Assembly: GCA_029941865.1 (NCBI GenBank)
Contig: JAPYTO010000025.1
Location: 1-37,164 of the forward strand
Direction: 5' to 3'
DNA from: Fuerstiella sp.
GTDB lineage: Bacteria > Planctomycetota > Planctomycetia > Planctomycetales > Planctomycetaceae
DNA: 37,164 bases
Shown: piece after piece, positions 14,368-18,330 of the stretch
Layout of the letters: the number at the start of each line of letters is the position of its first letter
How positions within the stretch are numbered: position 1 is the first letter of the stretch
Notes under the pieces: generated by a model
What the model was told of the DNA's origin: nothing
Seen by the model: only the letters and a program-made list of their open reading frames with translations
Databases searched by the model: none
Position numbers and translations under genes: made by a program

Positions 14368-14400
14368 AGAGACCCGGTCTTTTGAAAAGACCGGGTCTCT
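14368..14400. repeat. Perfect 16-bp inverted repeat (strong hairpin)
   Basis: Arms at 14368-14383 and 14385-14400 are exact reverse complements around a single central G: AGAGACCCGGTCTTTT and its complement. As RNA it would fold into a GC-rich stem with an A/U-rich top in either direction. It lies about 100 bases upstream of the chosen rlmN start, inside the leader. It could be a bidirectional terminator, an rlmN leader structure or a protein-binding palindrome. No long T-run follows on either side. Confidence 0.8.
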
Positions 14401-14450
14401 TCAGCACTCGACTTGCTGGCAGCCTGCACAACGAGCATGCGTCGGAATCA

Positions 14451-14507
14451 GGGGACTGACGTCCCCCGCTCGCCCAATCACGTGGCAAGCCGCGGACGTC
14501 AGTCCCC
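14451..14507 (+). terminator. Long inverted repeat followed by T-run, terminator-like
   Basis: Arms GGGGACTGACGTCC (14451-14464) and GGACGTCAGTCCCC (14494-14507) are perfect 14-base reverse complements separated by 29 bases. On the plus strand the right arm is followed by GGTTTTT. This looks like a rho-independent terminator apart from the long loop, yet no plus-strand gene ends nearby. It may be part of a repeat element. Confidence 0.5.
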
Positions 14508-14539
14508 GGTTTTTGCGTTCCCCCACGTCACCCTCCCGA

Positions 14540-14668
14540 GGGCATAGGTATCTACACAACTTCACCCTCCGGTCTTTACGGGAGGGTCGCGAGGAACGAG
14601 CGGGGAGCGGGGGGCCGTGGCATATGCAAATCACCAAATTCATTCCGGCAGGCCCTCTCCTCGCTGAG
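14540..14668 (+). repeat. Interspersed repeat, copy A (inverted partner at 18210-18330)
   Basis: Bases 14540-14607 match the reverse complement of 18263-18330 over 68 positions with only a handful of mismatches. The shared core includes GGTATCTACACAACTTCACC and GGGAGGGTCGCGAGGAACGA. After a diverged centre, a second block (TTCCGGCAG then CCTCTCCTCGCT, ending about 14668) is also shared. The core contains an ACCCTCC...GGAGGGT stem. The element encodes no protein and resembles a small non-autonomous or REP-like repeat. Confidence 0.75.
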
Positions 14669-14897
14669 GCTCGACTCTCCCAAGGGAGAGTGAATGCGAC
14701 CGAAACGAAATGCGGAGACATTGTCATCCCAGCCGCAACATCACTTCACCTCCGGATAACGGCGGCATTCAACTCCCGCCCCCGCCCGCGGACCTCCTTC
14801 TCGACGTCGCCCGATTGTGTAACATATGTGCTGTCACCGCGACGCTCCCAGCCGAATGGACTTCGTCAGACAGCACACGGAAGGTCTGGTTTGATTT

Positions 14898-17800
14898 ATG
14901 CATGAACTGATTCGAGCGTCTGCCGGAAGCGGAAAGACGTTTCAGCTTTCCGGCCATTTTCTTCGTCAGCTGTTTCTGGGCAATCCGCCCGAGACGATTC
15001 TGGCGACGACGTTCACGCGAAAGGCAGCCGGCGAAATTCTGCAGCGTGTCCTGCTGCGTCTGGCCGGGGCTGCTCAGGACGAAGAGGAATGTGCGCTGCT
15101 GGCTGAGTTCATGAAGCCCGCCGAGGTGACACAACAGAAAGCGAAGGATCTGCTGGTTGAGATCACCGCTCAACTGCACCGCATGCGAGTCTGCACGCTC
15201 GACAGCTTTTTCCAGCAGGTCGCGCGCAGCCTGACTCTGGAACTCGGATTGCCTCCCGGCTGGAATATCATTGACGAACACGCCGATCGTGAACTTCGAC
15301 AGCAGGCCATTGACGCGGTCCTGGCACAGCAGGTGCCGAAGGATGCTCAACGACTTATGCAGATGCTGGCCAAAGGACGCAGCAAACGCAGCGTTCGGGA
15401 TCTGATCAGCGACACCGTCCAGCAATTCCACGAGTTGTACCTGCTGGCCGATTCCGACGCGTGGCAGCGAATCACCGTGCCGCAGCGACTGACTCGCAAA
15501 GAAGTGGAGCACGCTCAGCGAGAGGTTGCCGCCGAAACACCCTACAACGACACTCGTGCAGTAAAGGCCATCCGAGAAGACCTGGATCGCTTCGCGGCCG
15601 GCCAATGGGAAGCGTTTGTGCAGAAGGGAATCGCCGCAAAAATATTCAACGGCGATACCAGCTATTACCGCAAGGAGTTGCCGGGCGGGCTGGTCGAAGC
15701 GTACGAACAACTGCTGCGACACGCTAAGGCCGAGTTATTGGACGCTGTCGCGCGACAGAACAAAGCCACGTTTAACCTGATTGAACGCTTCGACCGTGAG
15801 TACACTCGACTGCGTGCCGAACACGGCTGGCTGGGATTCGGTGATGTCACTCGGGTGCTGGCCCAGGCGAATGATGCGGCCAGCGGTTCGCGCATGAATT
15901 TTCGACTGGACAGTGCTTTACAGCATCTGTTGCTGGATGAGTTTCAGGACACGTCGCCCGATCAATGGAATGTACTGCGACGGCTGGCCCTGGCGATCGC
16001 TCAGAAGGACGAGGAATCCAGTTTTTTCTGCGTGGGAGACCCCAAACAGGCGATCTATGGCTGGCGCGGGGGGGTCGCAGAAATCCTGGACGCGGTCGAA
16101 AACACCATCCCGGACATCAACAGTACTTCACTTGACCAGAGTCGGCGGTCGTCGAAGCCCGTGATTGACACGGTCAACTCGGTTTTTGAACACATTCACC
16201 AGCACGGCAATCTGAGAGACTACGGCAAGGCCTGTTCCGACTGGGAACAGCGTTTCCCGACCCATTCGACGGTGCACGACACCATGCCGGGGTTCGCGAC
16301 GCTGCAGACCTCGCCCGAGTTCGAAGGCCTGGCCGAGATCCGTCGCACTCCCTATTATCGCTGGGTCGCGACAAAGATTCAGGAGCTGCATCAGCAGAGC
16401 CCCGGAGCAGAAATTGGGGTCCTGACCCGCAAAAACGCCACCGTCGCTCGATTGGTCCACGAATTGAAGTTATTGGGCGTGCATGCCAGCGAAGAAGGCG
16501 GAACAGCTCCCACCGACAGCCCGGCGGTACTGGCCGTACTGTCGCTGCTGCATCTGGCCAGTCATCCCGGCTGCGAGATCTCAAGATTCCACGTCGCGAC
16601 ATCACCGCTGGCCGGTCTGGTGGAATTGACCACATGGACAGATAGCCGATCTGCTTCCCGCACCGCTTCCGAAATCCGGGTACGGCTGATGGACGACGGG
16701 TACGGACCGACCCTGCAATGGATCTCTGACGCCATCCTGTCCTCATGCAATCAACGAGACGTTCTGCGGCTGCAACAGATTGTGGGGGTGGGCTGGCAGT
16801 TTGATCAGTCTCCATCACTGAATCCCTCTGACTTTGTGCAACTGCTCGAGAACAGTCGGCTGAGCAAATCCGAAGCGGCTCCCGTGCGAGTCATGACGGT
16901 GCATCAGAGCAAAGGACTGGAATTTGACATCGTCGTGCTGCCCGAACTGGACGGCAATCTGTTTCGCACGCCGAATGCCGCGGCCGGCAGCCCCGCACCC
17001 GACATCGCGCCGGACCAGGTTTGTGTCTGGCGCAACAAAGCCGTACGCAGTCTGTTGCCCGAATCCCTGCAGCAGGCTTTCCGCCAGACAACTTCGCGAG
17101 ATGTGTCTGAAGCCCTGTGCCTGTTGTATGTGGCGTTAACTCGAGCCGCTCACGCGCTGCATATGTTCATTCCGCCTCTGTCGTCGAGCAAGACGCCGGC
17201 TTCATTTTCCGGCGTTCTGCTGGCGTCACTGACGGACGATCAATGTGCTCCACCAGAGAAAACATTGTACGAATGCGGTAACGCCACGTGGCATCAGGAC
17301 GTTCCCGCCATGAACAAGGTCCGTGCCGTTGCCAAATCGGCCCATGGGACAAGGCGCAGCGTGCCGCAGGTGCTTCTTGCTCCGCTGCAGGAACGGCGCC
17401 GCGGACTCAGGCGCGAGGCTCCATCGCGACACGATCGGACCAGAATCACCGCGCCGTTCACAGAACGTCCTTCGATCGCCGGTGCCGTCGATCCCCGAAC
17501 GCGGGGTACACTGTTTCACGCGTGGTTCGAAGCCGTGGAATGGCTGCATGACGGGCCTCCGCAGGAAACCCAGCTGCGGCAGATCGCTGACCAACACGCT
17601 GTGGAAAAGGCGACCGTTGATGATCTGTTGCCGATTTTCTATGACATGCTGAAACAACCCAACACGTGTGCCATCTTCACCCAGGTAACGCTGCTCGAAA
17701 CCCCTGTCTTTCGTGCGTTTGCAAAGAAAGTCGCAGTCGGGTCCGCTGAAATGTGTGTGGAGAATGAACGCCCGTTTGTGCTGAAACGCAACGGAGCGAT

Positions 17801-18053
17801 TGTACAGGGCAGTATCGACCGACTGGTCATCCTGCGCGAAGCCGGAAAACCGGTGGCGGCGGATATCGTCGACTACAAAACGGACAAAGTGACCGGCCAG
17901 AGGGCAACGTGGGTCGCCGAAAAGACACAGCACTATGCGGCACAGTTGCAGCAGTATCGCCGGGCCGTGCAAACATGTTTTGGCATCGATTCAGAAGCGA
18001 TCTCAACGCGTCTGGCGCTGCTGGAGGTGGACGTGGTCGTCAGCCCGACCTGA
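14898..18053 (+). CDS. UvrD/RecB-family helicase-nuclease (AddA-like)
   Basis: The product is 1051 residues. It has an SF1A helicase core with Walker A RASAGSGKTF (residues 6-15), Walker B LLLDEFQDTSPDQW (about 344-357), motif III CVGDPKQAIYGWRGG (about 376-390), motif V VMTVHQSKGLEFD (about 665-677) and motif VI LLYVALTRAAHAL (about 741-753). The C-terminal PD-(D/E)XK nuclease has GSIDRL (about 970), DIVDYKTDK (about 988-996) and QLQQYRRAV. This is the AddA/RecB architecture, which resects double-strand breaks for recombination. No AddB or RecC partner is adjacent. It might act alone or with a distant partner. Inverted repeats flank the gene on both sides. Confidence 0.88.
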   Translation: MHELIRASAGSGKTFQLSGHFLRQLFLGNPPETILATTFTRKAAGEILQRVLLRLAGAAQDEEECALLAEFMKPAEVTQQKAKDLLVEITAQLHRMRVCTLDSFFQQVARSLTLELGLPPGWNIIDEHADRELRQQAIDAVLAQQVPKDAQRLMQMLAKGRSKRSVRDLISDTVQQFHELYLLADSDAWQRITVPQRLTRKEVEHAQREVAAETPYNDTRAVKAIREDLDRFAAGQWEAFVQKGIAAKIFNGDTSYYRKELPGGLVEAYEQLLRHAKAELLDAVARQNKATFNLIERFDREYTRLRAEHGWLGFGDVTRVLAQANDAASGSRMNFRLDSALQHLLLDEFQDTSPDQWNVLRRLALAIAQKDEESSFFCVGDPKQAIYGWRGGVAEILDAVENTIPDINSTSLDQSRRSSKPVIDTVNSVFEHIHQHGNLRDYGKACSDWEQRFPTHSTVHDTMPGFATLQTSPEFEGLAEIRRTPYYRWVATKIQELHQQSPGAEIGVLTRKNATVARLVHELKLLGVHASEEGGTAPTDSPAVLAVLSLLHLASHPGCEISRFHVATSPLAGLVELTTWTDSRSASRTASEIRVRLMDDGYGPTLQWISDAILSSCNQRDVLRLQQIVGVGWQFDQSPSLNPSDFVQLLENSRLSKSEAAPVRVMTVHQSKGLEFDIVVLPELDGNLFRTPNAAAGSPAPDIAPDQVCVWRNKAVRSLLPESLQQAFRQTTSRDVSEALCLLYVALTRAAHALHMFIPPLSSSKTPASFSGVLLASLTDDQCAPPEKTLYECGNATWHQDVPAMNKVRAVAKSAHGTRRSVPQVLLAPLQERRRGLRREAPSRHDRTRITAPFTERPSIAGAVDPRTRGTLFHAWFEAVEWLHDGPPQETQLRQIADQHAVEKATVDDLLPIFYDMLKQPNTCAIFTQVTLLETPVFRAFAKKVAVGSAEMCVENERPFVLKRNGAIVQGSIDRLVILREAGKPVAADIVDYKTDKVTGQRATWVAEKTQHYAAQLQQYRRAVQTCFGIDSEAISTRLALLEVDVVVSPT

Positions 18054-18209
18054 TGATTCGATCGTCCGGAGGGCTCACCGTGCCACACAAGTTGCGTAGG
18101 CCAGGACCGGTTCATGGCCGACACGACTGTAGCGGAATTCGCCAAGAATTTCGGCAGTGACAGGTCGAAAGCCCTGGCGGCTTTTGCTACGACAAAAAGT
18201 AAACTGCTC

Positions 18210-18330
18210 TAAGCGAGGAGAGGCTGCCGGAAGGCAGCCGTTTATTGACGAGCAGAAGTCCCCTCCCCGCTCGTTCCTCGCGACCCTCCCGCAAAAACGG
18301 GAGGGTGAAGTTGTGTAGATACCAATGCCC
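18210..18330 (-). repeat. Interspersed repeat, copy B (inverted relative to copy A)
   Basis: This is the second copy of the repeat at 14540-14668, in opposite orientation. Its core at 18263-18330 contains a better-paired ACCCTCCCG-TTTTT-GCGGGAGGG hairpin than copy A. The two shared blocks and their order are the same as in copy A, and the spacer between the blocks is a few bases shorter. Confidence 0.75.
18222..18239 (+). terminator. Hairpin with GGAA tetraloop downstream of helicase
   Basis: GGCTGCC-GGAA-GGCAGCC forms a perfect 7-bp stem with a GNRA tetraloop, followed by GTTTATTG. It is the best terminator candidate for the helicase gene, about 170 bases after its stop. It lies inside repeat copy B, so it may simply belong to the repeat. 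Confidence 0.5.

Follow-up and report, generated by a model that had tools for sequence, protein, structure and literature searches.

Inverted repeats around a planctomycete helicase-nuclease gene: probable remnants of a miniature element family with IS50-like partners

A 37,164-nucleotide stretch of the Fuerstiella sp. genome (contig JAPYTO010000025.1; the window, below) contains a complete helicase-nuclease gene lying between two inverted copies of a short repeat, and this arrangement raises the question of whether the repeats invert the gene or mobilize it as a unit, as a sequence-only reading had proposed, or have a history of their own. The pair itself was recovered where that reading had placed it: the longest inverted repeat found by a repeat search of the window joins positions 14540-14610 and 18260-18330, with arms of 71 nt that are 93% complementary and are separated by 3649 nt, and the strength of the arm-to-arm match in a search over the whole genome (E = 1.6e-23) means that the pair is not a chance similarity. 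We conclude that the two repeats are very probably one-ended remnants of a family of miniature inverted-repeat transposable elements (MITEs) that an IS4-family transposase resembling that of Tn5/IS50 mobilizes in trans. Members of the family are noncoding and have defined ends, several of them lie between 9-bp target-site duplications, and full-length partner elements bear the same ends. What was an unexplained repeat pair can in this way be assigned to a defined family of mobile elements, for which there is a candidate enzyme, and the suspicion of a switched or moved helicase gene largely falls away; in addition, a Tn5-type transposase is linked to repetitive extragenic palindromic (REP)-like sequences in planctomycetes, and the element apparently carries its own preferred target.

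Copies, ends and duplications of the repeat family

The sequence-only reading had made the element depend on the existence of further copies, and these proved to be numerous: with the left copy as the query, 43 matches were found in the 8.04-Mb, 612-contig genome, corresponding to about 40 places after the merging of neighbouring pieces, and this is a lower bound, as 40 of 65 first-look candidates were scored. Most matches are limited to bases 1-78 of the query, since the copies have one half in common and differ in the other. Their core is a modular unit composed of ACYCTCC, a loop and GGAGRGT, followed by CG with one of several short motifs and then by GGGAGGG or GGAGAGGG; two such units in inverted orientation, together with a spacer, form the interior of the element. 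The conserved stretch outside the units is the 16-bp end CATNGGTATCTACACA, for which there are 52 matches in the genome at up to 2 mismatches and 3 for the reversed pattern, whereas the genus's seven other genomes are at background, with 3 to 9 matches compared to 2 to 9 for controls. Full copies are mostly 184-235 bp long with CATNGGTATCTACACA at both ends, and convergent end pairs are typically about 225 bp apart, so that the intact element can be taken as about 225 bp with inverted ends of at least 16 bp. A 225-bp copy treated as single-stranded DNA folds much better than shuffled sequences do (z score of -6.9). The family is therefore recognizable as a MITE family by its short length, its paired terminal inverted repeats, a duplication of fixed length, the absence of a transposase gene inside and its many copies, with autonomous elements bearing the same ends (L337 and L338, below) present in other genomes. 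Copies, ends and folds all agree with the earlier description of an interspersed, noncoding, MITE-like element that is rich in hairpins and has REP-like units; at Rfam gathering thresholds, the window is without a match.

Target-site duplications were sought in 59 end pairs from this genome, Candidatus Laterigemmans baculatus, Planctomycetes bacterium CA13 and other genomes of the class, pairs with more than 4 mismatches in total or with flanks shorter than 40 bases having been excluded before the count; the set is uncurated and includes some alternative pairings or far-apart chance pairs. Flank identity peaks at 9 bp, with a mean of 0.508 versus 0.354 in shuffled pairings (z 7.5), and at least 8 of the 9 flank bases are equal in 16 of the 59 pairs, the like count at the other lengths from 4 to 13 being 0-2. 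The single exact flank repeat in this genome is one of 10 bp, GCTTATCCGG (L024/L076). In CA13, the same ends are found on three nearly identical elements of 448 bp (L279, L285 and L291, at 1501-1948), which are bounded by the direct repeats CTCCAAGC, CCCTCCGGG and GCTCTAGG, of 8 or 9 bp, and point to recent movement. We do not claim that these CA13 elements contain a broken four-helix-bundle gene, Pfam having returned nothing for two frames of one copy.

Both components of the element occur in other planctomycetes. The exact 29-nt unit was found, among the loci listed, in Laterigemmans in 77 of 80 cases and once each in CA13 and two further metagenome-assembled genomes (MAGs), and the same kind of ends gave 10 matches in CA13 and 25 in Laterigemmans, with none in controls. 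A unit identical over 29 nt, combined with the same ends in such distant planctomycetes, may point to a joint spread of target repeat and element. Across the class, the 19-bp end is present in 32 of 397 genomes, and the exact unit pattern, counted in 40 genomes, occurs 71 times here, 320 times in Laterigemmans, 56 times in the genome G243, 13 and 4 times in two MAGs and 3 times in CA13, the remaining 34 genomes having 0 or 1. Many end-bearing genomes are without the unit and two have a few units without the end, so that the association between unit and end is not general. Virus contigs contain no exact match to the 29-nt unit.

Partner insertion sequences and palindromic targets

The same ends bound two full-length insertion sequences. 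In L337 (genome G243), perfect 19-bp ends lie 1363 bp apart and enclose one transposase gene, encoding 429 aa; L338 (genome G364) is a 1370-bp element, cut on its left by the contig start, with one transposase gene, encoding 428 aa. The two transposases are 47% identical and share the YREK motif, Y310-R313-E317-K324 in L337, with the spacing Y-(2)-R-(3)-E-(6)-K conserved in L338, and structures of Tn5 transposase are matched, over residues 25-368, by a profile built from both sequences (E = 1e-6). A structure predicted from the two sequences was poor (mean predicted local distance difference test score of 39) and was not used. The partner end CATTGGTATCTACACAAGT fits the IS50 consensus CW------Y---CA-A--W- at 7 of its 7 stated positions. 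The outer end of Tn5 is 19 bp long and terminates in TACACAAGT. Since the size, ends and duplication length fit the IS50 subgroup (PMC2266710), we regard the repeat as a MITE family of an IS50-like element.

Ends of the same kind accompany relatives of the transposase, about 40% identical to it, that are carried by enterobacterial plasmids: the relative on Serratia plasmid p11663 (L365) has GGCATCTACACAAGTTG on both sides, that on a Citrobacter plasmid (L366) is flanked directly on both sides by the 9-bp direct repeat CCCAAGATG, and an Acinetobacter relative shows such an end on one side only. One of the plasmid relatives L365 and L366 adjoins sul1, and the other has the CCCAAGATG repeat. The C-terminal half of NCBIfam model NF011312, named for the flagellar regulator FlhF, matches most of both IS4-type transposases, as if the model had been built with fused or contaminated sequence.

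Insertions across the class prefer palindromic targets, among them the very stem-loop unit that many copies carry. For the 20 of 59 pairs that have a duplication of 8-10 bp at up to 1 mismatch, the flanks were joined to rebuild the empty site, and in 10 of these sites at least 9 of the 11 base pairs about the insertion point are symmetric, compared to 1 of 400 random places in the same loci; these control places are mostly coding, so that intergenic composition may explain part of the contrast. Symmetry is only 8, 7 and 6 of 11 in the three empty sites from this genome and 6 of 11 in two of the three 448-bp copies of CA13. Half a stem-loop (ACYCTCC, with one mismatch allowed, within 22 bases upstream of the end) precedes 14 of 55 ends in this genome, as against 51 of 1100 control windows, and likewise 18 of 20 ends in Laterigemmans, 5 of 10 in CA13, 3 of 3 in G243 and 22 of 53 across further genomes of the class, controls for this test ranging from 2 to 5.5%. 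The full-length element of G243 sits within ACTCTCCC-ACT-GGGAGAGT, and two contigs of that genome terminate with an element end directly behind a unit pair. Ends placed behind units, there and elsewhere, mark the stem-loop unit as both a cargo of the small elements and a target. We tentatively suggest, as a possibility that we do not press, a self-seeding MITE, in which an IS50-like transposase favours the loop of a REP-like stem-loop and acts on small elements that bear this same stem-loop; every insertion might then destroy one landing site and add two, giving rise to nested, mosaic repeats.

The helicase-nuclease locus and the alternatives

In the window, terminal repeats at up to 3 mismatches number only two, one per copy. 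The left copy begins with CATAGGTATCTACACA at 14543-14558 (plus strand), which has no mismatch to CATNGGTATCTACACA, and continues with the first stem-loop unit at 14564-14607 (plus strand), an ACCCTCC-loop-GGAGGGT structure followed by CGCGAGGAACGAGCGGGGAG that is apparent from sequence, fold and copies elsewhere. After a spacer comes the second, inverted unit at 14653-14691 (minus strand; match to the unit pattern), behind which there is no terminal repeat: the far end of this copy was not found at up to 3 mismatches. In the right copy, the terminal repeat CATTGGTATCTACACA at 18312-18327 (minus strand, 0 mismatches) is joined to one unit at 18261-18306 (minus strand; unit pattern and fold), and the copy then breaks off inside its second unit, the truncated remainder of which, at 18209-18232 (minus strand), matches the left copy at 88%. 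The element had originally been delimited as 14540-14668 and 18210-18330; its limits are better set by the two terminal repeats, and the left copy extends to about 14692. A shared end block noted earlier (18209-18232 and approximately 14643-14668) is present but weak when taken alone (88%, E = 0.32), and it is part of the second stem-loop unit. Single-strand folds of the copies have z scores of -2.9 (left; equalled by 2 of 200 shuffles) and -5.8 (right; 0 of 200).

As the earlier reading had it, one complete gene lies between the copies: it occupies 14898-18053 (plus strand), outside the element, and encodes a UvrD-type helicase with a PD-(D/E)XK nuclease domain, of 1051 aa. Upstream is an RlmN-like radical SAM gene on the minus strand, and downstream is a GDSL lipase-like gene. 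Other repeats were observed nearby. A second, unrelated inverted repeat at 14446-14512 (29-nt arms, 83%, GGGGACTGACGTCC type) directly adjoins the left copy, and a similar stretch also lies beside another copy, in the flank of L018. A terminator-like palindrome, AGACCCGGTCTTTTGAAAAGACCGGGTCT, was seen by eye at about 14370-14400, upstream of the left copy, and palindrome fragments of the GTAGGCCAGGACC type occur near several copies (window positions of about 18090-18115, L015, L028 and L103), which suggests another repeat family. Positions 17-284 hold a 72-bp tandem repeat of 3.7 copies within a frame open at the window start.

Five relatives were compared, and both flanking genes could be aligned in two of them, G007 and G001, which are also the closest by the helicase gene (84% and 82% identity); in G002, G003 and G005, the helicase alone aligned, and these genomes are uninformative on gene order. 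G007 and G001 have the same three genes with order and orientation unchanged, and the aligned blocks are separated by gaps of 163 and 181 bp on the left, versus 527-529 bp here, and of 110 and 76 bp on the right, versus 377-407 bp here, with no stem-loop unit and no end match in either genome's gaps. The gene therefore neither arrived with the repeats nor flipped relative to these relatives, and its inversion or mobilization by the pair is not supported. Proximity of copies calls for no special account, as 43 to 71 copies in 8.04 Mb are expected to give 0.9 to 2.5 neighbouring pairs within 4 kb by chance, half of them inverted; another pair in the genome (C220) is about 4.4 kb apart, in direct orientation. 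The inverted arrangement around the helicase gene is most likely incidental.

The history that we propose would begin with a Tn5-type transposase, supplied by an element that is now gone from this genome or was missed by its draft, that moved the MITEs by cut and paste into palindromes, so that the family would have arrived or expanded in this lineage after its split from the sequenced relatives. The two window copies would have inserted independently, one in each of the intergenic gaps flanking the helicase gene; the flank ACCCTCCCGAGGG at 14530-14542 (plus strand) looks like a stem-loop unit reduced to its left half and is possibly the original target of the left copy. One end of each copy may then have been lost, either to a later deletion or to recombination between stem-loop units that copies share, a step that we guess at because the left copy is a mosaic, with half a stem-loop just before its end repeat.

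Several observations weigh against this account. Neither window copy has both ends, so that the target-site duplication seen in several members of the family is displayed by neither; in the relatives, divergence of the DNA between the genes is too great for exact insertion points to be read. Homology between the small and the full-length elements is limited to approximately the last 20 bp. The partner transposases reach 103.5 and 108.5 bits with the NCBIfam IS4-family model NF033590, the cut-off of which is 160, and the Pfam scores of 19.8 for PF01609 (cut-off of 23) and 22.1 for PF14706 (cut-off of 24) are also below curated thresholds, which is why we word membership as IS50-like; a search of solved structures with a single transposase sequence gave no match. 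A transposase with matching ends was found in other genomes, but at E <= 1e-10 neither this genome and the rest of its genus nor CA13 and Laterigemmans gave a homologue; its absence from the present genome is weak evidence, given a 90.5% complete draft in 612 contigs in which repeats collapse. Homologues are present in 5 of the 27 genomes searched, all of which, other than members of the genus, were picked for having ends, so that most end-bearing genomes are without a recognizable copy of the L337-type transposase. The Tn5 DNA-binding model PF14706 has no match in eight genomes, a result to be read with the fact that one partner transposase itself scores just under the cut-off.

Could the repeats instead be classical REP elements, or REP doublets forming hairpins (REPINs), spread by a REP-associated tyrosine transposase (RAYT, of the Y1 type), the CATNGGTATCTACACA ends being incidental? 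The interior is an inverted pair of stem-loop units, as in REPINs, the 29-nt unit in Laterigemmans is in high copy number and mostly without end repeats, and there are 5 Y1 transposase genes in the present genome. The unit, however, lies near none of the 35 Y1 loci inspected in five genomes (this one and four others; 4 further Y1 matches had no locus), and the Y1 genes of this genome, by eye and among the matches listed, adjoin other repeats. The units also have no GTAG or CGTC foot (39 distinct units start with AC[CT]CTCC, which the search pattern imposes, and are preceded by TTT, TTC or similar), and the ends form pairs flanked by 9-bp duplications. We accordingly rejected RAYT as the mover of the element and consider this explanation improbable, while a RAYT mechanism may be the way in which the bare units spread. 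As a separate observation, a Y1 transposase gene in this genome (L035, contig C132) has GTAGGCCGCGTGCAACGCGGC-type palindromes on both sides, by eye a classical RAYT arrangement.

A composite transposon or invertible segment, in which the outward ends at 14543 and 18327 would move or flip the 3785-bp helicase segment, could draw on the intactness and correct orientation of both terminal repeats and on the agreement of the 9 bases outside each end at 6 positions. Agreement at 6 of 9 bases does not make a convincing duplication, chance alone is expected to produce such a pair, the genome has no detected homologue of the transposase, and the unchanged place and orientation of the gene in G001 and G007 speak against it as well; we consider this account very improbable. 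Strong hairpins and an intergenic location would fit a local duplication, or a transcription terminator shared by both gene ends, but the left copy precedes the gene, and an origin of this kind is refuted by copies at roughly 40 genomic places; the occurrence of the unit in other planctomycetes speaks against it too, and its likelihood is negligible. Remnants of a MITE family served by an IS50-like transposase thus remain our preferred reading.

Relation to known systems

As far as titles, abstracts and passages of the open-licence literature searched show, this MITE family is without a matching description. Its partners are closest to the IS50 subgroup, for which Table 1 of De Palmenaer et al. 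(2008, PMC2266710) lists sizes of 1350-1550 bp, the end consensus matched above and duplications of 8-9 bp; the partners resemble it in size (1363 and 1370 bp), end consensus, YREK motif, duplications of 8-9 bp and the match to the Tn5 profile. They differ from it in having 5'-CA ends, as the text of the same paper says that IS10 and IS50 members have 5'-NT ends, in scoring below the curated models and in their preference for palindromic repeats. Such targeting of REP sequences by an IS4-family element is already known from ISRm22, for which REP sequences of Sinorhizobium meliloti serve as insertion sites (Tobes and Pareja 2006, PMC1525189) and which is comparable to the present element in having copies in REP-type palindromes. 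ISRm22 is nevertheless assigned to subgroup IS4Sa rather than to IS50 (PMC2266710), and the passages that describe it (PMC1525189) mention no small elements bearing the target repeat.

Like the REPINs and bacterial interspersed mosaic elements that are spread by RAYTs (PMC3116915, PMC2817692, PMC3733652), the family is made up of stem-loop units paired in inverted orientation around a spacer and has numerous intergenic copies, and unlike them it is without the GTAG/CGTC foot and the adjoining Y1 gene (0 of 35 loci) and has outer inverted ends with 9-bp duplications. A review of prokaryotic MITEs (PMC10969869) is without an IS4 entry, the term "IS4" having 0 occurrences in it. With the elements treated there, the family shares short length, lack of coding capacity, terminal inverted repeats, target duplications and mobilization in trans; it is set apart from them by an interior pair of REP-like units that is, in several genomes, also the favoured target.

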